The notes under the pieces are model-generated. The model saw only the letters and a list, made by a program, of their open reading frames with translations, had not been told where the DNA came from and did not search any database. Positions 38,701 through 59,367 of a DNA stretch of 64,000 nucleotides are shown piece by piece. This DNA comes from Phytoseiulus persimilis (taxonomy: Eukaryota; Arthropoda; Arachnida; Mesostigmata; Phytoseiidae): positions 8,246,001 through 8,310,000 of the forward strand of contig CM075102.1 in the NCBI GenBank assembly GCA_037576195.1, given 5' to 3'. The first letter of the stretch is position 1. The number at the start of each line of letters is the position of its first letter. The translations under genes and the position numbers were made by a program.

Positions 38701-41700
38701 GGCGGTTGAGAGCCACCAGCCCGTTCAGCATTGACGCCTTGTAGTACGGCGAGCCGTGAGCGGCGAACCGCACGTCCGTGATGGGCGGCCGCTCTTGCTT
38801 CAGAATCACGGAGAATATGTCGACGTTTTCGGGCTTTGTCTTGACAAGTTCCGCTATTATGTCGCGGAAGTCCTCCATTTTAGACTTGACCTGCTTCTTG
38901 TTCTGCCAGTCCCAGACTCGGATGAAGTCTTCGTCGCTCAGCCCCGCGATCCGGATCGATCCCGAGTTGTGGATCGCCTCTTCGGGGATCTCTTTCACGG
39001 TGACCGTTACGTTGGCCGTCGCTTCCTGGGTGTGCATTCGGTCGTAGACGAGGAATCGCAGCTCGTAGAGACCGCTGCCGGTGACGTTCTTCATGGTGAT
39101 CATGCCCGTGTCCGTATCCAGTTCGAAGTTCTCGTGTTCTTTGTTGTTTTCCCAGAAAAACGTCTTGTCGGGAAGATCCCAGTCGTCGAAATCCTCGACG
39201 TGGACGCGACCGATTTTCGTCGGTGGGTTTTCGCCCTTGAAGTTATATACAAAGATATTTTTCGCACCGGGATGCATACGATTATCGTTGGTGTCGCCGA
39301 TGATTACGGTGAGGGTGGATGTCCCCGTCAGGCTGGGACTGCCAGAGTCCTTTATCAAGATGGGGACAAGGAATTCTTTGCGGACTTCTCGGTCGAACTG
39401 CTCCTTCGAATGTACCACTGCCATTCCGTCGCCGTTGGCGCCGGTTGGATCGTGCTCGACTCGGAACAAGTCCTTGATGTCTTCGGGTGCATTTGGATCC
39501 ATACGGAATGTGAAGGGCGGCCCGTTATTTTTGGATCTGTCGTCATCGTCAGTCGCTAGGATCTCCTGAACTTTCATAGGCGGTGCTCGTTCGGGTATGA
39601 CGGGTCTGTAGTCGTATTGGAACCTCGGCGGATTGTCGTTGATGTCGGAGACGACCACGGTCAGGGTCGCCGTGGCTGTCCGGGCCGGGGTTCCGTCGTC
39701 GATTGCCAGAATCTTCACTTGGTGTCGAGGGGTTTCTTCTCGATCCAGAGGCCGTTGGATCTTGACGACACCGTTGTTGCTGATGGTGAACTGGCGTCGT
39801 TTGTCCGAGCTCCGGTCGATCTGGTAGCTGACTTTCGACTTGCCTCCTTCGTCAGCGTCGGTCGCTCGGAACGTCGCGAGGCTGGATCCAATCGTGGAGT
39901 TCTCCGGCACCGAAACCTCGATGTTGGGCTTCTCGAACTCCGGTCGGTTGTCGTTTATGTCTCGGAGCCTTACGCGGACTTTGGCGTAGTCCAAATGATA
40001 AGGGTCAGCACTTTCACCACCGTTGTCGCTGACTTGGATGGTCACGTTGAAACCGTACCTCTGCTGCAGGTCTTCGTAGTCCAGAGGCTGCAAACGTCAA
40101 CAGTCCCAAGGTTAGATGTTGAAGCCGGCTGGAACACAAACACATGATCCGCCGCAGCTAGCGCGGGAACAGCATGAAACGCATGTGAGTCAAAGTTTCG
40201 AACGAGTGAGAGAGCTTCGAATCACTTGCTCACCTTGGCAATCTTTAGCGATCCTGTCCCGTCTGAATTGGTGACCATTGTAAAACGGTCCGCCCCAAAC
40301 GAGTTATTCATGACTTTGTAAGAGAATCTGTTGGTCTCCAGCAGATCACCGTCGTTGACTGAAACCACCAAGATGGGCGCTTCTGGGATGTTATCGGCCT
40401 CCGTCTCATCCACCTCGACATACCATTCCTTCTTGGTGAATTCTGGGGGCATATCGTTTATGTCCTTGATCTTGATGGTGGCGGTGCCTGTTCCTTTCAG
40501 ACCGCCACCGTCAACCGCCACTACCTGTGAATTCGCAGAGAGAGACAACAAAACCACCGTTAGAGAAACGAATGATGTGCTGCCTAGCACCGCGCGCAGC
40601 AGACGCCGGCGATCCATGGTCTGCGTGGACGACCCATATTAACTTCCTTCCTTCCGTAACGTAACAGCCTCCTCGCCGAAAATCGTGCTCGGGCATACTG
40701 TGTCAACATTAACCGTTCAAACATTGAGCGAGCGAGGCGGAAAGAGCTCAAAACTTGAGCGATGACGCTCTTTGGGAACCTCCCCGATAGCGATGGAAGC
40801 AACTTCTCTTTCTCTGGAAGCCCCACTCGAGGGCAGAATCATGAAGCAATCGCGGCACGCACCTTGATGGTATACTCGGGATTCGTCTCCCGGTCCAGAC
40901 AGCAAACCGCTGTTGAGATCACGCCGGTCTCCTCGTCGATGGCAAATATGAGTTCGCCGTTCTCGTTCACTTGGTTTTGCTCGATTGAATACGTGAGCTT
41001 CGCGTTTGTCCCCTCCATTGGATCGTCGTAATCCGTAGCCGTCATTGTCATAACGGTCATTCCAGCTGTTCCGTTCTCTGTAACATTGCCCGTGTAGACC
41101 GCTCCCGCGAAGAACGGGGGGTTGTCATTGATGTCTGCGGGAAGAAAAAAGAAAGAACGGTCAGTGCCCTGGAGTTTCGTGGGGCAGGGGTGGCAAGTCG
41201 CGAGACTTTGTAGAGCAGCAATGAACTCTCTTGAACATTCAAGAGCGCGATTTTCTCTCAATCGAAAGCGCTCCCGAATCACTACCAAAATCTCGTCAAC
41301 TTTTGGAGGAGGATTCGACGTGAGGCGAAAAAACTAACTGGATGGGTGTGACCCATTATCGCACAGTAACGAACCGGAATAAGGATCATAAATTATGCAT
41401 ACCCTTCAGATTGACAAGCACGTCAGCGAATCCTACTAAACCATTGCCGCCTTCGTCTTCCGCAAACACTGTGAAACGCCACTGAGATCGGCCATGCGGT
41501 AAATCTCTATCCAGAGGCTTGAGCACATATATTTCCCCGGTTGTTTGATTGATGGCGAACTTGTTATTTTCGGAGTCGGTGTTGTCCACTCCTTGACCGG
41601 TCAAGAAATAGACGATGTCGGACTCGCGATCCCGATCTCCGTCCGTGGCAGTCACCTGATTCGCAATACACGAAATTAGTCATGTCAGTTGAGCGTGGTC

Positions 41701-44700
41701 GCTTGGCTTGGGCGCCCTCGATTCCGGTTGTTTCTACGCGGGCTTCCTCGTGGCAGTATCTAAGAATAGTTCTCGCAGCGACGTCCGGCGACTGGGAGCC
41801 CGGAACCGTAGTCCCTCGGAAGGTGGGTGTTAGGGTTGATTGGAACGAACATTTTCATGACACAAGATGGAAGCAGACTAAATAACGCTCGGAGGCGGGA
41901 TGTTCCGGCAGAAAACTCGAGGACATTAAACAAACAGAAGGATTCAAACCTATGACGGCTCTACTTTTTCTGGAAATTCAATCCAAGCGGCTGTCATCTT
42001 CCGAGCCGTATTGTCCACAATTGAGGGACACGGTTTCAAAATAAAATATTCAAAACAAGGAAGAGCGTCAAATCAGTGATGCATGATCGAACGAGTTCGA
42101 TAACAGAATAAAACGAAATGAAAAGCAAACCTTAAGGATCTGTTTCGGGAGCCCGAGTTCATCCTCCTCGGGAATCGTCGTCTCGTATGAAGGTCGTTCG
42201 AATTTAGGAGGGAGGTCGTTAATGTCTTTGACCTTGATCCGAACGACGGTCTGGTTCTCGTGATAGGTATCCGAGGCGACCAGAGTCAAGTTGTACTGCA
42301 AAGCAACTCACCGTGAGAATTTTTTGAGGAAGATTCCGATCGTTCTCCTCTACAATCTGAGCATCATACGTGGGTACGGTAAATATGGGCGCGTTATCAT
42401 TAACGTCCTTGACACGGATCAACACCGTCGTATGGTTCTCGTTGAGGTTGTCCGACGCGACCAATCGCAGTCGGTACTGAATCCGAGCCGCGTGCGTTCG
42501 CGTAAAATGTTAGTTCAGCCATGCGTACGGTTAGTCGCCTATGAGACCCTCAGCTGTCGGTCCGCATTCGGTCCGACATCAGGTCGCCCATAATTCTTGT
42601 TTCGGGTATTCACACGTCATGGCACTGACCTCTTTGCGTGTTTCATAATCCAGTGGGCCTGCCACGAAAATGGCTCCGGTTTCGTTTTTGACCGCGAAGG
42701 CACCCCCTATGTTTCCTTGGGTGATCTCGTAACGGATGCGGGAAGCTGAAAGCGAGTTTGGAATTTTCAGTTCTTGAGTTCGTCTGCTTCGGGGGTTTCG
42801 GATCGCTCCGAGAAACTTCACTCAACATTCACTCCCACATTTATCCAGGGAAAGTGAGTTGGACGGTACAGCGGGCGAATTCGGTGCAGGTGAAGAAAGC
42901 GATTAACGGGAAAGAGCTCGCGGAGTGCACGACCTAATTTCGGGACGATTCTCCGACTCGAAAGTTGGAGAAATCACCATGGAGCACGAACAAAGGCATG
43001 AATAAACATTTCCACTCGGAACAAAGACGCTTCCCGCCCGCTTTCATTCACAAAAACCCCCAGTCGGGAGTGGAGAAGATAGGAGGAGAATGAGCACGAG
43101 AATCGCGGGTAAGGAGAACTAACGACAGATGGGGCGCACGCCGAATAAGGAGAAAAAGAAGCTCCAGGAGGAGAAATTCGAGCAGAGCATTGTTCCTCGT
43201 TTCACTGTGGAGTTTCTCGCCGCTCAGTTGCAGCTCGGGTGCCGATGCAGACAAGAGGGAGATTCCGAAGAAAACTAAAAATAACGGGCGAATCGCTCAG
43301 AGCCTCCACATCAAAAAGGTGAGGCTCAAATCCGCCGCGAGAGCCACATTGGTCTTTTGTGGAGAGGGGGGGATGGATTTGGAAACAGGGGGGGGGGGGG
43401 GGGGGGGAGGATTTGGAAACAGGGGCGGTTTCGATTTTCTCGGTAGAAACGATGGCTACTCACACTCGTCTTTATCTTTAGCAGTAACAGTGATCACTGT
43501 GTGCTGTACATCTTCGTCCTCGTTGACTTCGGCCTCATACAGGGCTTGTGAGAAGTACGGGGGATTGTCGTTCTTGTCTCCGATCCCGATGCGGATGTAT
43601 TTCGTCACCGAGTTGGGTTGATTGCCTCGGATATGTGGCCGAGCGGACGCCGCACCGTCCTCTGCGCGAACCTGGATGGCATACGCCAGCTTCTCCTCTC
43701 GGTCGAATTCAACTTTGGTGTAAATGTCGCCAGTCTCCCGATCAATGGTAAAATACTTATCGCCCTGATCCTTGGACTCGATTGCGTAGTACACCTTGTT
43801 GTTAGGGTAAGTGCCATCCTTGTCCACGGCTTGCACTTGGGTAACCTTTGTGCCCGAAGGCATTCCTTCAAGAACAGTCTCCTGCTCTCGCTCGATGAAC
43901 AGAGGAATTTCGTCGTTCACGTCCTCCAGAACAATGTACACTGTAGCCTCGGAGGCCAGTTGCTGGATGCCGTTGTTCTCGACGCGAATCGTCAGGTTGT
44001 ACTGTTGGATCTTCTCGTAGTCGAGTGGGTAGTTGACGAACAACTCTGCCCAAGTGTGTCCGCCGTCGTTTCGCTGGTTCAGATAGAATGTGTCTTTCTT
44101 GTTCGTCTGTTCGGTGCTGCCCTTCATGAGGGTGTAGAACACATCAGGATTGTCGGGAATCCCAGAGCGCGCTTTGATCGAGATCACCTTCGAACCCACT
44201 TCGAGGTTCTCTTTGATGAAAATCGGTCCGTAAACAGGTTGGTCCCAGATCGGGGGGTTGTTGGCCCGGTCGACGACATCGATGACAACTTCCACCGTGG
44301 CGGAATGCTGCGGCGTGCCTTTGTCCGTCGCGATGGCACGCAAGTGATACGAGTCTCGGTCGAGTGGTTTCCGCAGCTGGATCCATCCGCTCTCGGGGTT
44401 GATCGAGAAGTAGTGCAGGTCGGCGGGGTCGTAGGGAGCCGTCAGGTTGTAGACGATGACACCGTTCAGGTCGGCGTCCTCGTCGCTGGCGGACACCCTC
44501 AGGATAGGGTTGCCGATCTGGGTGTCCTGTTTCACGTTTTCTCGGTACTCCTGCCGATCGAAGAGCGGAGGATTGTCGTTGACGTCGGTGATTTCGACTT
44601 TGAACGAGCAGACGCCCTCGAGGGGCGGACTGCCTCTGTCGGTGGCCTTCACCGTCACGGAGACGAAGCGTCCGTCGTCGCCTTCCCTGTCGAACACTTT

Positions 44701-47700: not shown

Positions 47701-50700
47701 GGATGGCTGGTTGGCGGGCAACGAAAACACCAGTGCGCAGAGAAGACACCGCGGCGTAAAGGAGGCTCCGCCAACTCGCTCCCTAGCTCTATTTATCGAC
47801 TAGCCGAACCGCAATGCCGAAGATGATGAACGAGATAAAACAGCGATCGTTTACTTTCGTACACTCTTTGTGTCCCTCAGGACATTCTGAGCGATTTGGG
47901 CACGATCGCGAAACGAGCGCCGCCCACAGAGCTCCACAGCCTCAATGCTCGCCTCAACTTTAATTGTCGTCCCCACGAGGAATGTATAACAATCGCGATA
48001 GTTGAACAAGGGTTCGAAAAGTCGGGACCAGGGAAAGGTTGCGGCTGCAAAAGGCAACTAGCGAGAGGGAACGGAGAATCGGAGCTGACCAGAGTCGCCA
48101 CCCGAAACGACCGATAGCGAACTTACTCGGAATCCTTCTTCTGGCTTTCAGGGATGGTCGCCTCGTATTGAGGGACGTAGAACTGTGGAGGGCGCTTCCC
48201 GCCAACGATGGACAGACGTTCTTCTTTGGTACTCTGGTACTGCCGTTCCCCTTCGGGTCCGCTGAGATCTTCAGCTTTGACGTAGAGTACGTATTCCTTG
48301 TCCAGCATGAAGGGGGCATTGCCCACAGTGATTATTTCGCCAGAGAGGGCATCCACTTCGAAGCGTTGGCCACCTGGTGAGCAAAAACACATGATCAGAT
48401 GATTTCGAATAGTTCTTCCATTTCTGAAATTGTTGAAACATCATCAAGTCGGACAAGATGGAAATTAATCGAAAATTTGCGGAGGTAATCAGAGAAGTAC
48501 TCGACTCTCTTGCCTCCTCCAACAGAGAACAGATCATCTCTTACATGGCTGATTGCCGTGAAGATGCCGTCTCAAAACGATCAAAATCCAGGGATATTCA
48601 GAAACCATGACTTTGCATTAAGAGCTAAACTTTGAACCGCATGAGACCCATCAAGAAATGACCCGAGCCAGAACTTGGAGTAGGCTCCGGGCAGTCACAA
48701 CGTTCCTTTGAGCTGGCTCATAATAGGCTTTGCTAACTTTGATCCCACAGTTTGTCGCCGACAACGATTGTCTCCCCCAACAAAGGTGTCAGAGTGGCGA
48801 AAACCGCGAACGCCCAATCCTCAGAGGCATTCCAGCGACCGAGCAGAGGTAAAACGAGGGAGAAAAAGAGGCTTCCATGGAGGAACGAAGTCGACCCGAC
48901 AGCACAATGCGAAACGTTCGATCACCGCCAACCGACAAGGCCACTCCTTCCAAGTTTGCGTTACGGCCCGTATTTAGCTGGTAGATTACGGCCATTCATT
49001 ACGCACACGAACAGAGTACAGGTATGAGGAGGGTAGCGGCGGTCGAGAGAAAAAAAGTAGCACGGAAAGCTAGGATGCAACCGAAGTAGGTAGCTCCTCT
49101 TAAAAATGGCCTCCAAGACGTTTCATGCGAAAACTGAGAACCGTCGTGGGCAAACGAATTCTCTCGGAGTGAGAGCTCGGAGCTGGAACTCTCGGGAACC
49201 AGCCAGCCCATCCCTCGGGGTTCAATCTCTAGTTTTCCCTCCTCTACCCCGCTGAACGCCTCCTTGGGGGGGATCTTCTGGTTGTGAGAGGTGTAGGATC
49301 CGCTTCCGTGGGCTTGATCAGAGAAAAGTAGGAGCAGAAACCGACAACGATTGGCGAAGAAACTCAAAAACAGAACAGCGACTCCAAGAGAAGGGTAGAT
49401 TGTCTTCCCGGGTCCTGGCTCCAAGATGGCGAGCCACTCCATTCTCTCGATACACGACTTGATTGGGTCAGAATTCAATCTAGTTCGCTGTTAGAAATAA
49501 ACTGCTCTGAGAAGGCTCAGGACGCGGTCATCAAGAGGCATTGTCACTCGTCTTGGTGTTTCCTCAAATTAACCCTTGTTGTTGATTGTGTCGTTACGCT
49601 TAGTATTTTCTTGTGGCATGGGCTGGAAGAGCCGGAGAAAAGCGACGCGTCAAGGGTCGTTCCGCTTCCGACTCGGTGAAAAAAATTAGACCGCGGGACG
49701 GATGTGCGAGGAATCGCTCACACTTGCGGAAAACACCTGCTGCTGTTGCTGCGCATCAGAATAGACGAGACTTCATTCTGGCCGGGCCGAGGCCAACCAA
49801 GGATAGCTCAGGAGTCAGAAAGCGAGTTGGCAGCAGGGATGAAGTCTAGTTGCCCCGTTTCTCTGAACTCGAGCCTGCCAGGGATGGCTACGGAGTTTCC
49901 GGGGCAGGTCACGGAACTTGGCTAAGTCGGGTGAATTCAAGGATGAATTGCAGCTGCACTTACTTCTGTCTCGCACGATTGTGTATCGGATGTTATGGTC
50001 GCTGTCGGGGTCGCGAGCCTGCAGCTTGAAAACAGGAGTACTGGGCGGGGCGTTGAGCTGCACGACGGCTTGCATCGGTAGCGGTCTGTTGATGAAGTAC
50101 GGCCGCTCATCATTGACATCCGTGATGTGAATGATGATTCGCTGCCTCTCCTTGTCGGGTCGGTTCTGTTGCTTCACCAGAACCCAGAAGTCGATGGTTT
50201 TCTCCTTGTCCAGCTGTTCGTAATCCCATTTCTCCTTGACTTTCACTTCTCCGTTCGCCAAGATTGTCACCCATCTGCAAGAGGAAAACGATCGATCTCT
50301 TTAGTGACTTCACACCAGGGCACCTGTCGGTCATAGAAAGCAGCTCGAATCACTCGATGAGAGCGGGAGGGATCGAGTTCCGTTGCCGCATGTTAGGCAA
50401 AGGACGCTCCTTCTGGCATGCATCAGTCATTCGTTTTCGACATTCGAACGAAGTTCCGATGTTCGAGCTCGGAAAGTCTTCCGATCAGTTAGTCTGTCAG
50501 TCGGTCAATCGGTCAGTCACCGTGAGGATCTCTCCGCTCGGCATCCGCCCTTATTGGTAAGCGGTTGACGTTCGGACGGAAGCACGTAATCGATTAGGTT
50601 GCTTTTCGAAACATCTGCCGCGCGCTTTTGATTCTGTGGCTGCAGCCGAGAAGCGATCAAACAGCACTGAATCGAAAGCAATCCAAACCACCCGATAACC

Positions 50701-53700
50701 CATAATAATCAAGCAGTGGCCACAGAAACGAGGCACGGAGCCAACGGGTCTGTGGAAATTTCGCTCTCCTCCAGAGAAAAGTGGAAACGGGTAACTTGGT
50801 GCGGTGCGCCGTGAACGATCCGATAGTTACACGAAGAACGTTCACTTGGCACACATTTCAACAAGCGGATAGAACGCTCGGAAGCAAACGTTACCAGTCA
50901 ACTTCATGAGATCTGAGGAATATTTCCAGAACTAGAAACCGTTCCATGCCGTTCGGTTGGGCGGTCGGCTGACCGTCGCGATTGCGAGGCTCTCGCGATT
51001 CGGCGCGAATGACCTCATATCCAGATTCTGTTCCGTAAAGATTCACTATGAGGGATCGAGATGGAGCTCCTCGAAACACCTTCCGCAGAGCGAGTCGGAG
51101 CCTTTGATGAGCCCTCTTGTGGCGCACACGGGAATGAAGACGATGTACGGTTGAGGACATACAGCGGGAAACTCTTTATTTTTGCTCGATATTGTACTGG
51201 AGAATGAAAGCTCAACTCGCGAATCCTCGAATCGCACTTGGCAATGAGCCATGTCATCAATGTCCGGGTTATTTGTTCTTTAAGTTAGGTCATTCGTCTC
51301 GTATTCGTCGCGTCCCTGTATTATGATTAGCACCGCCGATCCCCGCCGCTTCCCTTGCAAAATCACAAAAAGAGGAGCTCGGGAGAACAGAAGCGAATAG
51401 ATAGAATTTCCGTTGAGACCGGAAGCCTCAGGAGGATGACCGAACAGAACGCTCGTACGTCCCCGGTCCCGGAGAGCTATTCGAAGTCGTCGACCTCACC
51501 GTAGACGCAGCCCATTTCTTCGGACATCATTTGGGACGCACTCATGTGCGGATCGTCATCCTCTTCGAGTTCAATTCCTTCGACGTCCTCCTCGACGAAT
51601 TCGGCAGGATCGACCTTGATCTCCTGGACGCTGTCTTTCATTGTCTTCACGATTGAATGAATTTTCATGAGATCCTTTTCCATTTCGCGTTTGGCAAGCT
51701 CGTCTTTGAGCTTGAGCTTCTTTGGTGGAGTACCAGTCGCTGCCGTCGTCGTCACGGCCGGACCATGAAAGTTTCCTTCCAGATTGGCGAGTATATCGTA
51801 GTTGATCTTCCCTGACGATCTTTGGGTCAGGACATCGTCCAAAAGTTTCTGGGGATTTCTTTTCTGAGGGGCTTTCCGTTTATTCGTTCGAGTCTTGTGC
51901 GCTTCGTCCCGTTTGGGCTTGTCTCTGAACTCGCGGAGGTACTGCATGTTCTCCTTCACCCATTTCTTGGTTTTGCGTACGACCTCGTCTTCGCGGAGCA
52001 AATACTGATCGATTTCGTCGTCGTCGATGTCCGAGAAAGTGTCGTTCGCCTCTGTTTCCGGCACGACGTAGTCGACAACCCGGTCCTCGCCCGCCGAGTG
52101 CGGCGACAAGGGCCCGCTCGAGTCGTGGTGCTGCTCTCCACCCTCGTCGAGAATCTCAATCGAAGCAGACGTAATCTGATCAGCGAGTATCTCCATCTCT
52201 TCTGTGGTTAGCTGGAATTTTCTCATCACTTCCTCGTCCTTCACGGAGTTCGCGAATCTCAAAGCCACCTCCAGCTGGCGCTGTTCGATGAGGCTCTCGA
52301 GCTGCAGCTGGAACTCCTTCGTTTCCTGGATGAGCTCCTCGTCGATGCTCTGCTCCTCTATTTTCTTGTGCTGTTTGCTTATCGGCGGAAGATGCTCGTC
52401 CATGATGTCTTTATCGTCCGTGTCCAGGAAGTCAGCGACTCGCATTTTTCCGGCTGGAGTGTCCGCAAACTCTTTCAGCCGGAGCTTGAGCGTCGAGGTG
52501 GATATGCAGACGAGTTCGGCGAATTCCGAGAAGCTCCTGTTGAAGCCGTGGTATCTGCATGCCGCCAACAGCGCCGATCCACACAGTCCTGCGGGCCGAC
52601 GACCGATGTGCATCCAGTCCCGATTCATCCGTTGACAAATTCGAACAGCTGTGTTCATCACCCTTTGGCACTGGTCCCCGAGCTCGAGCTTCTGCGAGAA
52701 CCTCATGATGAGCAGCGACGGGTCCTGAACTGGGATCGTGAGGAACAGTCCGCGGCAGATCTTGTTGTAAACTTGACCAAGCTCCCACACGTTCACTTGA
52801 ACTATGTCTGACAGATCGAGCAGCATAACCGGCATGTTGTTCAATCTGGCCACGATGTAAATGCACGCCGACAGAGTTTTCGACCACCTGACTCCGAGCG
52901 TGAGTTTCCGATTCAGGGCCTGGTCATAGAAATTCGTAGACTGCGAAATCGCATCCTCAGAGAAGTTCAGGGATGACGCAATCCGTCGGATTTCGTCGCG
53001 AGCTCGGTGCAGGAGCAGCCGCCGTCGCTCGTCGGCCGTAGAATTGCCCTGTATCCCTCCAACACGTGTGACTCCACCCGCACCCACACGTGTGCCGAGA
53101 GCTCGGACCCCTCCTCCGGATGTTTCTTCGAACTGGAGCTCGGACACAATGAAACTGCTCTCCGCGACCACGCCGCAGTCCCGGCAAACCGCATGGCCCT
53201 GTTGTCGGTCTTCGACGATGCTCGAGGACCCGCAGCCGGCACACGCGGTCATTACGCTGCTCGTCGCAGACCGATTTCAGGTTTCGTTGCTCGCACGAGG
53301 TGCCACGATTTCAATTTTCTCCAATTTGCCGCTCCACTGTGTCGAGTGTTTTCCTCCCAGGCGACGACGACGACAGCCGCCGGCTATCGAATGTTTAGGA
53401 ATAGTGAGCAGACGCCGTAAACAAACGCCTGCTGTAAAAGCAACCACAACGACAACGGTGGCGGTAGCGGAATCGGCATTAACAATGAGAGCTGCAACGA
53501 CGCCAGCACCGGCCCCAGGAAGCAGCACTGTCGCTGGCACCACAATACTTTAGTTATCTTTCCATGATGATAATGGAGATGAGCAATTCCAAAAAAAAGA
53601 TAATGAACGATGAATTCTCCATCGTGGACGGGACCAACAACAATGGCTTGCGGTACTTGAAAAGGAGCAGCACTGCGGCTGCTGTATCGCTCGCTGCCCT

Positions 53701-56700: not shown

Positions 56701-58622
56701 GGGTCGACAGCTATCTCCCAGAGATCAACCGCGGCCAAGCCGTTCGAAAACGCGGCTCCTCGTGGACACTCAGGAGAGCCAGTCAGTCTTCCTCGAGGCC
56801 TCGGAAGAGCAACGGATGTCGTTGCCAACAAATCGATCGCCTCGATAATCCCCTCTGAATCTACTTTCGGAGGAACGTATCCATCTCACTGACACTAACA
56901 AGTACGGAAAAGAATAAAAGGAACTAACCTGTTGGCCGCTTCTAGTTCGAAGGATTCTCCGGTGTACTTCTTGTCCAAGGTGAACACGGTCTTGTTGGGA
57001 CTGCTTCCGTCGGTTTCCTTGAATTTGTAACTTTTGGTGGGTCGGATGGAGCCGAGAGGAGTGGATCGTCTGCTCCGGTGCTTTGACTCCTCGTTTTCAA
57101 GTTTGTTATCCTTCATGAGTTTCATGTAGTTATCAACCCGGGAATCTGGCGATATTCTACCCTCGGGCGGGATGATGTAAACCGTGATCGGAACCGGCTC
57201 ACTGGAAAACGTCAGCCGGCTGTCACGCCGCGTGTCGTTGAGAATCGCTCTCAGTTGGAGCGTAATCACGTATAAATCCTCGGTGGTTTCTTCGTTGTTC
57301 TGCACTTTTTTCGGGGTTTTCGTCGCGTCGTCCCGGTCACTGAGATCCGTTCTGAGATCACTGTCCGGGTGCCTCTGGCTCGTGAGAGTCTTTAGCTGCG
57401 AATTGTGTTCCCAGTCTTCCAGAGGTTTACGAGTGAGCACCAGTTGTCCGGTTTTGGGTACCATGGCGACCAAAGGGTTCCTATCAACCAGTTTGAAGAT
57501 GATCTGGTCGCCGTCAGCGTCCTTGCCCTCCACCTGACCGATGACGGTTTGGGGTTCGGCATCGGCTCGCACGCGGAATTCGTAGGATTTCCGCAGAGGG
57601 ATCGGCGGGTTGTCGTTCTCGTCCGAAACGCTGACCGTAACGTTCACGTAGGCCACCTCGGGGCCAGCTTGAGCTTTGATGACGAGGTTGCGGACTTCTT
57701 TCTCTTCTCGGTCCAGCCGAACCTGGCTAGCGATTTTGACGCGTCTCCTGGTGTACTTCACCAGCTTGAAGGTGCCGTTCCCGTTCCCCTCGACGATAGT
57801 GAAGTTAGCTCCTTTGTTTGTGGTCAGTATGAGATCTTCCATGTTGTTCGTGAATACCATGAAGCCGGGATCACGGTTCTCGGGCAAGAAGCCGAGTTTG
57901 CTCCCCTCCGAAAAGGTGAGGCGATGTTTGTGCGGCACAATATGCACCATCGCTTGGTACGTCGGGTTCAGCGTTCCGTTGATATTCTCGCCCACTACCA
58001 ACGGAGTACTAGTCGGGGCTCCCTTCCGGTCTTCGTCCTCCCCTTCGTCGTGGGCTCCTGACTCCCAAGAGGCGTCCGGCTCGTTGTAGTCGAACCTGAC
58101 TTTCGGATGAGGACTTTGACGGTTCTTGTGTTTCGCCCAGTCGAGAAGACCACACACCATAAGGTGGCCTCCGTCGCTCAGTGCGAAACTGTTTGATTCT
58201 TTCAGGCTGCTCTCCAGCAAGTTGAAATCATTCTGGACGACAGGCATACCCTGCATCACTAGGAATGACTGTCCGTAGTAGTTCAACAGACGAAGTATGT
58301 AGCCTGGATAGGCGGCATCGGTGACAACGATATGCTCGGGCCGCCAGTCCACGGGACCGCTCGGCTGGGTTGAGGCTTGAGATCTTTCTATAAACGACAT
58401 GAGTAGAATAGTGGCTAGGAATGCCTTCCCTAAGTACCGCTTCCCGACAACTCTTCGAGACGGCCGTTTCGAGATTGGACTATCGTCGGACTTTATGCTA
58501 TGTACATTATGCGGGATCCGGTGACGGCTCCGCATCCGGTAGGAGGTGGTGGATTCCGCATCTGGGCTCGGGAGCGCTAATCGGCTCCTCAGGAGGCTGT
58601 CCCAGCAGGGAAGAGACGCCAT
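35595..58622 (-). CDS. CadN: N-cadherin (classical cadherin, arthropod CadN type), complete spliced gene
   Basis: Calcium-dependent homophilic adhesion receptor of the plasma membrane; in arthropods it acts in axon guidance and synaptic target choice and links to actin through beta- and alpha-catenin. Seen here: 15 coding exon positions (14 constitutive plus a choice of 8a or 8b), every junction GT-AG with matching phase, total 9,597 nt and 3,198 residues, near the roughly 3,100 of Drosophila CadN. Order: hydrophobic signal region (about 64-78), long N-terminal region with an RSRR site (516-519), about 16-17 cadherin repeats marked by DxNDNxP linkers, the non-chordate cadherin region, EGF (2431-2464), LamG (about 2470-2672), EGF, LamG, EGF pair, one membrane helix (about 2999-3022), and a tail of about 175 residues containing [10 protein letters not shown], a [14 protein letters not shown] block and [12 protein letters not shown]. 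The start is the first ATG after an in-frame TAG (58,647-58,649) and has a good context (A at -3, G at +4). Intron 1 holds Brf1. Vertebrate-type cadherin is excluded by the EGF/LamG modules. Confidence 0.96.
35953..36390 (-). CDS. CadN: CadN exon 14: second half of membrane helix and cytoplasmic tail
   Basis: Encodes residues 3014-3160. ILVLVIVAY completes the helix, and basic TRSRR is the stop-transfer signal. The tail carries [19 protein letters not shown], conserved in classical cadherins, and [18 protein letters not shown], the core of the beta-catenin-binding region. The acceptor is GATGCAG|TC and the donor ACTG|GTGAGG. Reading through the donor adds 11 residues ([10 protein letters not shown] included) before a stop. 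Confidence 0.95.
36537..37504 (-). CDS. CadN: CadN exon 13: EGF, LamG2, EGF pair and first half of the membrane helix
   Basis: Encodes residues 2691-3014. It finishes the second EGF ([12 protein letters not shown]), then a laminin-G domain ([20 protein letters not shown] onward), two more EGF-like modules (CPSNNPCHG and [16 protein letters not shown]) and the first half of the transmembrane helix ([15 protein letters not shown]). The donor CTCA|GTGAGT cuts inside the helix. In Drosophila the exon at this position is one of the alternative pairs; here I see one version only. Confidence 0.95.
37689..40087 (-). CDS. CadN: CadN exon 12: last cadherin repeats, non-chordate cadherin region, EGF and LamG
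   Basis: Largest exon, residues 1892-2691. Linkers [20 protein letters not shown] and [10 protein letters not shown] mark the final repeats. Then comes the region from [18 protein letters not shown] to [16 protein letters not shown], typical of non-chordate classical cadherins. A six-cysteine EGF follows (2431-2464), then the first laminin-G domain (about 2470-2672, with GLLLYNGP and [10 protein letters not shown]), then the start of a second EGF. The donor is CACGG|GTGAGT. Confidence 0.96.
40234..40524 (-). CDS. CadN: CadN exon 11: cadherin repeat
   Basis: Encodes residues 1795-1891, phase 0 at both ends. The acceptor is TTCACAG|GTA and the donor [29 protein letters not shown] with the linker DINDMPPEF is followed by the next repeat up to GTGSLKIAK. 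The reading frame seems to continue upstream of the exon, but that part has no cadherin similarity and is intron. Confidence 0.93.
40525..40862 (-). other. CadN intron 10
   Basis: 338 nt, GT-AG. Nothing recognisable inside. Confidence 0.75.
40863..41134 (-). CDS. CadN: CadN exon 10: cadherin repeat
   Basis: Encodes residues 1704-1794. The acceptor is CCGCAG|AC and the donor AAG|GTGCGT. It completes the linker DINDNPPFF and continues through [20 protein letters not shown] and [13 protein letters not shown] to [14 protein letters not shown], among the most conserved stretches of arthropod CadN. Confidence 0.93.
41403..41655 (-). CDS. CadN: CadN exon 9: cadherin repeat
   Basis: Encodes residues 1620-1704. 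The acceptor AATCAG|GTG joins in phase 0 to either 8a or 8b; the donor is [30 protein letters not shown] and the later [12 protein letters not shown] are strongly CadN-like, and the linker Asp codon is split into exon 10. Confidence 0.93.
41656..42130 (-). other. CadN intron between exons 8b and 9
   Basis: 475 nt, from the weak GTTTGC donor of 8b to the AATCAG acceptor of exon 9. No third version of exon 8 is seen in it. It may hold splicing signals for the 8a/8b choice. Confidence 0.7.
42131..42295 (-). CDS. CadN: CadN alternative exon 8b (mutually exclusive with 8a)
   Basis: Exactly 55 codons, phase 0 at both ends. It encodes [18 protein letters not shown], the linker [10 protein letters not shown] and [15 protein letters not shown]. 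The acceptor is TTTGCAG|TAC and the donor AAG|GTTTGC, weaker than that of 8a. The 16-nt spacer to 8a consists of little more than the 8a donor and the 8b acceptor, so the branch point for 8b must fall inside 8a. It is a tandem duplicate of 8a that has kept its frame and key calcium residues, so it looks functional. Confidence 0.88.
42312..42476 (-). CDS. CadN: CadN alternative exon 8a (mutually exclusive with 8b)
   Basis: Exactly 55 codons, phase 0 at both ends. The acceptor is ATTCAG|TAC and the donor is the strong ACG|GTGAGT. It encodes the end of one cadherin repeat ([18 protein letters not shown]), the calcium linker [10 protein letters not shown] and the start of the next repeat ([15 protein letters not shown]). 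Its 3' end lies only 16 nt from exon 8b. Exon 8b has the same length and phase, with about half of its residues identical (28 of 55 by my count). Confidence 0.9.
42630..42745 (-). CDS. CadN: CadN exon 7: short cadherin segment
   Basis: Encodes residues 1526-1564, entering in phase 1 and leaving in phase 0. The acceptor is CTTTCAG|CT and the donor [29 protein letters not shown] followed by GPLDYE is a typical mid-repeat. It is immediately upstream of the alternative exons 8a and 8b, and its phase-0 end fits either of them. Confidence 0.92.
42746..43463 (-). other. CadN intron 6, with a G/C homopolymer
   Basis: 718 nt, GT-AG. It carries the 20-nt G run (C run on the coding strand) 57 nt inside the donor, flanked by a 17-bp direct repeat. 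No alternative exon seen. Confidence 0.75.
43375..43425. repeat. 20-nt G homopolymer flanked by a 17-bp direct repeat
   Basis: GGATTTGGAAACAGGGG occurs at 43,375-43,391 and again at 43,409-43,425, with a run of 20 G (43,388-43,407) overlapping the first copy and one A between the run and the second. It lies in CadN intron 6. Confidence 0.95.
43464..45022 (-). CDS. CadN: CadN exon 6: five cadherin repeats
   Basis: Encodes residues 1006-1526, the second longest repeat-bearing exon. Linkers in order: [36 protein letters not shown] (calcium motif degenerate), [12 protein letters not shown] and [12 protein letters not shown]. The acceptor is TCGCAG|G and the donor GTGAGT after DKDE. Unlike the exons around it, it holds several repeats without an intron. 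Confidence 0.95.
45324..45477 (-). CDS. CadN: CadN exon 5: part of a cadherin repeat
   Basis: Encodes residues 955-1006. The acceptor is CTTCGCAG|GA and the donor CAG|GTGAGA. The peptide contains the calcium-coordinating ASDKDGDN, then [21 protein letters not shown], the second half of one repeat. In the forward frame of this exon no long open frame exists outside the exon, so it is found only by joining phases with exons 4 and 6. Confidence 0.92.
45478..46470 (-). other. CadN intron 4
   Basis: 993 nt, GT-AG. Short frames only, none cadherin-like; no duplicate of exon 5 seen. Confidence 0.75.
46471..47081 (-). CDS. CadN: CadN exon 4: two cadherin repeats
   Basis: Encodes residues 751-955. 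The acceptor CTTTCAG|T joins in phase and the donor is GTGAGT. It carries a complete repeat ending in [12 protein letters not shown], then a second whose linker is the altered [10 protein letters not shown]. The DRE motifs typical of the cadherin fold (ADREIRYTL) are visible. It continues directly into exon 5 through the split Gly codon in NAGPG. Confidence 0.94.
47082..48126 (-). other. CadN intron 3
   Basis: 1,045 nt, GT-AG. I looked for a second copy of exon 3 or 4 (as for exon 8) and saw none. Confidence 0.75.
48127..48373 (-). CDS. CadN: CadN exon 3: cadherin repeat with degenerate calcium linker
   Basis: Encodes residues 669-751. The acceptor CACCAG|GT completes the Ser codon, and the donor is [20 protein letters not shown] is the usual mid-repeat turn. 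The next linker is unusual: no DxNDN motif stands before [16 protein letters not shown], and a charged insertion ([15 protein letters not shown]) replaces it. This inter-repeat joint may therefore bind less calcium and be flexible. Confidence 0.92.
48374..49963 (-). other. CadN intron 2
   Basis: 1,590 nt, GT-AG. It contains a chance minus-strand frame (about 159 codons, 49,478-48,999) that begins with TTG and has no recognisable domain. Nothing else stands out. Confidence 0.75.
49964..50274 (-). CDS. CadN: CadN exon 2: cadherin repeat
   Basis: Encodes residues 565-669. The acceptor CTTGCAG|A completes the split Arg codon from exon 1, and the donor is GTAAGT. The segment [20 protein letters not shown] is a typical second half of a cadherin repeat. 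The calcium linker [10 protein letters not shown] and the start of the next repeat follow. The exon is recovered 6.65 kb from exon 1, across the intron that holds Brf1, and the phase still matches. Confidence 0.93.
51175..51180 (-). terminator. Poly(A) signal AATAAA, likely Brf1
   Basis: Minus-strand AATAAA, with A-rich flanks, about 300 nt after the Brf1 stop. It is followed by GT-bearing sequence (GCTGTATGTCC, CCCGTGTGCG). It lies inside CadN intron 1, so CadN transcripts must bypass it. Confidence 0.55.
51477..53252 (-). CDS. Brf1: Transcription factor IIIB 90-kDa subunit (TFIIB-related factor), intronless, nested in CadN intron 1
   Basis: Nuclear initiation factor that, with TBP and Bdp1, recruits RNA polymerase III to tRNA and 5S genes. 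The frame is 591 residues, ATG to TAG, without an intron; other animals' Brf1 is about 660-680. Seen: a zinc ribbon with C4-x2-C7 and C23-x2-C26, then two cyclin-fold repeats (about 75-165 and 175-265; [18 protein letters not shown] is the classic second-repeat helix), an acidic/basic linker, then [12 protein letters not shown] to [14 protein letters not shown] (about 430-470), the Brf1 block that binds TBP and Bdp1, and an acidic C-terminus. It is a Brf1 rather than TFIIB because of that block and the length. It lies 1.2 kb from CadN exon 2 and 3.7 kb from exon 1, same strand. No stop or frameshift suggests decay. Confidence 0.95.
   Translation of the reverse strand: MTACAGCGSSSIVEDRQQGHAVCRDCGVVAESSFIVSELQFEETSGGGVRALGTRVGAGGVTRVGGIQGNSTADERRRLLLHRARDEIRRIASSLNFSEDAISQSTNFYDQALNRKLTLGVRWSKTLSACIYIVARLNNMPVMLLDLSDIVQVNVWELGQVYNKICRGLFLTIPVQDPSLLIMRFSQKLELGDQCQRVMNTAVRICQRMNRDWMHIGRRPAGLCGSALLAACRYHGFNRSFSEFAELVCISTSTLKLRLKEFADTPAGKMRVADFLDTDDKDIMDEHLPPISKQHKKIEEQSIDEELIQETKEFQLQLESLIEQRQLEVALRFANSVKDEEVMRKFQLTTEEMEILADQITSASIEILDEGGEQHHDSSGPLSPHSAGEDRVVDYVVPETEANDTFSDIDDDEIDQYLLREDEVVRKTKKWVKENMQYLREFRDKPKRDEAHKTRTNKRKAPQKRNPQKLLDDVLTQRSSGKINYDILANLEGNFHGPAVTTTAATGTPPKKLKLKDELAKREMEKDLMKIHSIVKTMKDSVQEIKVDPAEFVEEDVEGIELEEDDDPHMSASQMMSEEMGCVYGEVDDFE
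56929..58622 (-). CDS. CadN: CadN exon 1: signal region, N-terminal region and first cadherin repeats
   Basis: Encodes residues 1-565 (last codon split, phase 2). A basic N-terminus precedes the hydrophobic run [15 protein letters not shown] (about 64-78), with a plausible signal cleavage after SQAS near residue 84. The signal sequence is unusually far from the first Met, so the in-frame Met30 is an alternative start. One clear cadherin calcium linker is present (SDENDNPP). A multibasic RSRR at 516-519 is followed by the strand that leads into the next repeat and could be a furin site. The donor is CAG|GTTAGT on the minus strand. Whether a 5' UTR exon lies further upstream cannot be seen. Confidence 0.92.
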
Positions 58623-59299
58623 TTTGTTTCGGCAGATCACGCGACTCTATGTTGTCCTCAACAGTTCAGGTTGCCGCTACAAAGCGACCCCCCTCCAGCA
58701 GTGGATGATGCCGACTCAGAACTGGACATGGCCCCGCCTGGAAAACGAGAGAACGGATCGGTTAAACAGCGATACAAAACCATCATAAGTGAACAATGTT
58801 ATCAGGTGTCAGCATCGTGGTCGCGCAGCTTTCGAGGGATGATCCTTTCCCCCCCCCCCTTCAGTTCTAAATACGCTCTAGCGTTCCGTTCCATGATGTC
58901 CGTAGGTTTCGGAATAATTTGGGCACCGCTCAGAGCGTCCTGCTCCTGCCTCTGCTTTGTTCACTTCCTTCTGCACACGATGCTGCAGTCGAGCGGTTCC
59001 TCATATTCCGGCGTTTGTACCATAATAAAGCCGCATCATACTCAATGTCCGGAACGACCACGGAACAGTGATGCAGGTGTGCTGATTTAGGCATCCTCAT
59101 CGTGCAAGTTTCAGATTTGCCTCTTGCGCGGCTCAGTTCCTGTGAAGGTTCTCGAAGACGTCCAGACCACTGTCAATCGCGGAAAATGGCGGAATGAAGA
59201 CAGGAGCGGATTTCATAAAAAGCTGTCAGCCGCGTCAGTTCAGCATCACATTCCAGCTTCTGTTGGCCGTTTCTTGTTTGTATCCGCTAAGTGTCTGGT

Positions 59300-59367
<68 letters not shown>

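Follow-up and report, generated by a model that had tools for sequence, protein, structure and literature searches.

The window (the whole stretch of 64,000 nucleotides that was analysed) contains on its minus strand a gene whose exon products match cadherin repeats, Ig_Shg, EGF and LamG in Pfam. These domains are arranged as EC repeats followed by Ig_Shg, EGF with two LamG, and a transmembrane segment, this last stretch being read by eye; EGF and the start of the transmembrane segment are in the same exon as LamG, after which comes a 146-nt intron. In addition, the classical cadherin cytoplasmic family PF01049 was matched (E 1.9e-15), and in the whole genome searched (a 181-Mb assembly in 127 contigs) this family gave two matches, both inside this gene. 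Since this domain set is combined with PF01049, the gene is, as judged from its predicted products, CadN-like, a type III classical cadherin gene, in agreement with an earlier note on this DNA that had proposed a CadN-type gene. The gene model is incomplete at its 5' end, and the exon numbers follow that note. Besides the spacer between exons 8a and 8b (Table 1), 12 intron spans of 146-993 nt were modelled, four of which are alternatives around these two exons. Searches with the 536-aa exon and with 8a found no relative in the set viral_contigs, and none in genome_contigs either.

Table 1. Features around the exon pair (window positions; exon bases stand to the left of the slash in donors and to its right in acceptors).
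Feature	Position	Strand	Details
Exon 7	42630..42745	-	donor GAG/GTCAGT, phase 0 at 3' end
Intron 7-8a	42477..42629	-	153 nt; CTAAC branch-site matches at -34 and -55
Exon 8a	42312..42476	-	165 nt, 55 codons; linker DVNDNAPIF; donor ACG/GTGAGT
Spacer	42296..42311	-	16 nt, GTGAGTTGCTTTGCAG; 8a donor plus 8b acceptor
Exon 8b	42131..42295	-	165 nt, 55 codons; linker DINDLPPKF; donor AAG/GTTTGC
Intron 8b-9	41656..42130	-	475 nt; the 8a-9 alternative is 656 nt
Exon 9	41403..41655	-	acceptor AATCAG/GTG; donor AGG/GTATGC

Between the apparent N-terminal exon of CadN (56898-58646) and the next one identified (49964-50284) sits an open frame of 599 aa (51480-53276, minus strand) that carries TFIIB repeats together with a BRF1 domain; apparently, a TFIIB/BRF1 gene is nested, on the same strand, inside a CadN intron. 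An AG-rich tandem repeat with a period of 4 or 6 is present at window positions 59301-59367.

Exons 8a and 8b are homologous and interchangeable in frame

Two tandem homologous phase-0 exons of 55 codons each, 8a and 8b, were found exactly where the earlier note had placed them. They share 28 of 55 amino acids and 95 of 165 nucleotides; a set of 2000 sequences generated by a first-order Markov model of 42295-41660 reached at most 14 amino acid identities. In-window blastp aligned 8a and 8b with E 3.7e-17, the remaining in-window hits reflecting EC-repeat likeness or low complexity. When the genome was searched with 8a, which gave four matches in all with only the best candidates scored, the top hit apart from 8a itself was 8b (E 4.2e-10). 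By their translations, both are homologous 55-aa EC-linker-EC segments. Nei-Gojobori analysis of the pair gave pS 0.77 and pN 0.32 (pN/pS about 0.4); synonymous sites near saturation together with restrained replacements fit an old duplication and point to two coding exons under selection. In the linker, 8b reads DINDLPP (42226-42200, minus strand) where 8a reads DVNDNAP, the asparagine being replaced by leucine. The replaced asparagine is a calcium ligand of the inter-domain linker, and the 8a and 8b forms may differ in linker stiffness.

Both 7-8a-9 and 7-8b-9 are in frame and free of stops, and the frame is also kept when both exons are skipped or when 8a is joined to 8b without the spacer. 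By contrast, the 346-nt composite of 8a, spacer and 8b is frameshifted and runs into a stop at its nt 256. Nothing in the geometry bars the pairing of the 8a acceptor with the 8b donor, and the main regulated choice might accordingly be one between productive and unproductive mRNA, with the stop in the composite exon lowering CadN levels. We consider this very unlikely: it leaves unexplained the retention of 8b as a full-length homologous coding exon under selection, and the composite would carry a strong GTGAGT in its middle.

The spacer and the predicted branch site of exon 8b

Adenosines are found in the spacer only at positions 4 and 15, and, judging by these positions, there is no plausible branch adenosine in it. 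Because the spacer is far below the modelled introns in length (16 nt versus 146-993 nt) and has no plausible branch adenosine, 8a would not be joinable to 8b, so that the claim that the two exons are not plausibly spliced together was borne out. The sweeping reason given for it, that an intron of 16 nt is beyond any spliceosome, is false in this general form: according to an excerpt of PMC9505925, the 8806 annotated introns of Stentor comprise 8173 of 15 nt and 633 of 16 nt. In the same excerpt, the branch A of the 16-nt introns is mostly at intron position 11 (442 of 633), unlike the two adenosines of the spacer described here. The existence of such introns in Stentor (PMC9505925, in part), the GT...AG ends of the spacer and the open frame across joined 8a and 8b would all suit removal of the spacer as a tiny intron, with both exons in one message. 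Against this stand the adenosines confined to positions 4 and 15, the 146-993 nt of the remaining modelled introns of the gene, and the duplication of half-domains that 8a and 8b together would cause; we regard it as scarcely credible.

The lack of a plausible branch adenosine in the spacer implies that the 8b branch site should lie in 8a. The best candidate is CTCAC (42317-42313, score 5.7), whose A at 42314 is at -19 from 8b and is the third-last base of 8a, within its last codon. Bases -3 to -1 of the 8a donor (42314-42312) overlap this predicted branch site. With branch-site weights that were home-made from a consensus, 10 of the 11 other acceptors, all except that of exon 7 (4.6), reached 5.7 within -17 to -40, as did 13 of 114 exonic YAG sites (about 11%). 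The CTCAC match is thus supportive of a branch site at 42314, without being conclusive.

A further indication comes from the AG inside GTGAGT (42308-42307), which lies between the predicted branch A and the true 8b acceptor, 7 nt from the former. An AG 7 nt from the branch A is usually too near for use. If the branch site were further upstream, for instance at the alternative candidate CTCAA at -30, this AG would compete as a frame-shifting acceptor. That the AG would be skipped with a branch at 42314 but would compete with an upstream branch argues by inference for 42314. On these grounds, the placing of the 8b branch point inside 8a, as the earlier note had it, is the most likely one, with 42314 as the best predicted position.

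Proposed mutually exclusive use and its mechanism

Taken together, we consider it highly probable that 8a and 8b are tandem mutually exclusive exons of a CadN gene, a type III classical cadherin, and very probably correspond to ME-13, that each mRNA contains either 8a or 8b, and that the branch site for 8b is in 8a. Productive mRNA would run from exon 7 through 8a or 8b to exon 9, and the choice would swap one EC-linker-EC segment of the ectodomain. Joining of 8a to 8b would be barred by a spacer that is merely a donor plus an acceptor. The 8b branch site would best be placed where the final codon of 8a coincides with its donor, with U1 on 8a and U2 for 8b excluding each other. The room between the first donor and the second branch point is too small for steric compatibility, with a 16-nt spacer and a predicted branch A upstream of the donor. 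With the branch site anywhere in 8a, the 8a-8b "intron" would have no branch point of its own, and exclusion would therefore go beyond crowding. More tentatively, and with somewhat less than even confidence, we suggest that the last codon of 8a does triple duty, providing a residue, part of the 8a donor and the 8b branch adenosine. U1, bound to 8a, and U2, acting for 8b, would in that case be rivals for the same few bases, a zero-distance steric exclusion with no intron between the exons, and a spacer of 16 nt, not a multiple of 3, would ruin the sole misproduct left by the geometry.

The exclusion had been described as purely geometric. This applies to the correct 8a-8b join; the spacer-retaining composite is not blocked by geometry and is made unproductive by its frameshift. 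Moreover, since the frame is kept when both exons are skipped, at least one of them must be secured by other means. Exclusion alone would leave open how one exon is picked, and the proposed regulated choice would need regulators.

Long-range RNA pairing between docking and selector sequences, known from other arthropod exon clusters (PMC6071210, in part), could in principle impose the exclusion in place of spacing, and 14 imperfect inverted-repeat pairs were counted in 41650-42640 (a raw count). However, the predicted folding of the 346-nt unit is unremarkable (z -1.25, with 11 of 100 shuffles folding as well), and with a 16-nt spacer such pairing is unnecessary for exclusion, though it could still steer the choice. 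As the cause of exclusion it appears highly improbable.

Exclusion by spacing has precedents in vertebrates. In the portion of PMC7969005 at hand, OGDH exons 4a and 4b are exclusive through a branch point near the donor, and alpha-tropomyosin and alpha-actinin are cited likewise. The pair described here resembles OGDH in that the distance from the first donor to the second branch point is under the proposed limit of about 50 nt. In human OGDH, the branch points sit 25-41 nt past the donor, within the intron that separates the two exons (same portion of PMC7969005), whereas the present spacer is too short for a branch point and the best candidate lies within the first exon, where it overlaps the donor. 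In the available part of PMC5740500, 57 human clusters, 9% of 629, contain exon pairs that might interfere sterically; they share the criterion of a donor to branch point distance under 50 bp, concern other genes, and in that part no spacer of 16-nt size is reported. What is unusual about the present member of this known kind of exon pair is that donor and branch site apparently overlap. Among arthropods, steric hindrance has reportedly been proposed for the Dscam exon 17 pair (Yue et al. 2013).

Comparison with the arthropod CadN exon pairs

The exon pairs of CadN serve as a model for alternative splicing that is conserved; the accessible part of Hsu et al. (2009) (PMC2655722) describes them in insects and in Daphnia. 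That part gives N-cadherin exon lengths of 63 aa for ME-7, 54-55 aa for ME-13 and 68-70 aa for ME-18. The gene kind, the exon length (55 aa here) and the position of the linker motif all liken 8a/8b to ME-13a/13b, and the pairwise identity of 51% (28/55) compares with 47% for Drosophila ME-13 (PMC2655722, in part). The ME-13 motif DxNDNxPxF, with no DRE, is fitted by DVNDNAPIF of 8a; in DINDLPPKF of 8b the second N is missing, and this DINDL in place of DxNDN, together with the 16-nt spacer, sets the present pair apart. The proposed likeness to ME-13 held up in length and motif position, and from these sequence features 8a/8b are very probably the ME-13 pair. No ME-7 or ME-18 pair was found in the gene: minus-strand frames of at least 25 aa, compared within 6 kb, yielded no second pair of tandem exons. 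Such company is not strictly defining, as Apis lacks 13b and 18b according to the same excerpt of PMC2655722. In the same work, Drosophila and Tribolium use 13a in neural and 13b in mesodermal tissue. The available part of PMC5473995 gives Tetranychus urticae and Metaseiulus occidentalis one type III cadherin each.

If the host is a mite, the pair would extend beyond the species surveyed in PMC2655722, as far as its excerpt goes. In the literature searched, in which subscription journals are barely covered, neither this pair outside insects and Daphnia nor a spacer so short was found among the reports listed. A pair squeezed to 16 nt illustrates how spacing alone could guarantee exclusion, and opens the limit of such steric exclusion to testing.

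Splice-site strength and a paralogous cadherin

Splice sites were scored with a small leave-one-out set, trained on 10 sites or fewer. The donors scored 10.97 for 8a, 4.02 for 8b, 1.89 for exon 9, 2.2 for exon 13 and 6.59-12.08 for the others. The acceptors scored 9.49 for 8b and 5.15 for 8a (others -4.41 to 12.27), with pyrimidines at 12 and 9 of 20 positions, respectively. The weakness of the 8b donor noted earlier was therefore confirmed; the suggestion drawn from it, that 8a is the default form, was not, as exons 9 and 13 have donors with still lower scores and the 8a acceptor is poorer than that of 8b. Since 8a is superior in its donor and 8b in its acceptor, neither can be called the default; scores trained on 10 or fewer sites do not decide the matter. 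The donors of exon 9 (GTATGC, 41403) and 8b (GTTTGC, 42131) are both unusual in having GC at +5/+6.

A second Ig_Shg gene, at C2:49.01 Mb, has counterparts of the exons that run from the latter half of exon 8 up to the transmembrane region. Its exon end is identical to 8a at 13 of 22 positions and to 8b at 9 of 22. The two introns flanking it showed no second exon copy, the best match there having 10 of 55 identities; given this lone 8a-like exon end and the two introns examined, the idea of the same exon pair in the paralog was rejected. The comparison points either to 8a as the form closer to the ancestor or to a loss of 8b in the paralog.

The single 8a-like exon end of the paralog (C2:49.00 Mb), with no second copy seen in the two flanking introns, would also be in line with 8b being a decaying or unused copy in a gene that yields the 8a form alone, as would the weak donor AAG/GTTTGC, the DINDL with its missing second N and the absence of 13b from Apis (PMC2655722, in part). 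Yet 8b is open across all 55 codons, in frame, and provided with acceptor and donor; its pN/pS against 8a is about 0.4 despite near-saturated synonymous sites; and the exon 9 donor is weaker than its own. We consider decay or disuse of 8b unlikely, and retain the mutually exclusive use of both exons as the best explanation.

The paralog (C2:49.005-49.016 Mb, plus strand) is shorter than the CadN-like gene and encodes Ig_Shg and two LamG stretches, with no PF01049 match, possibly representing a reduced cadherin with few repeats.
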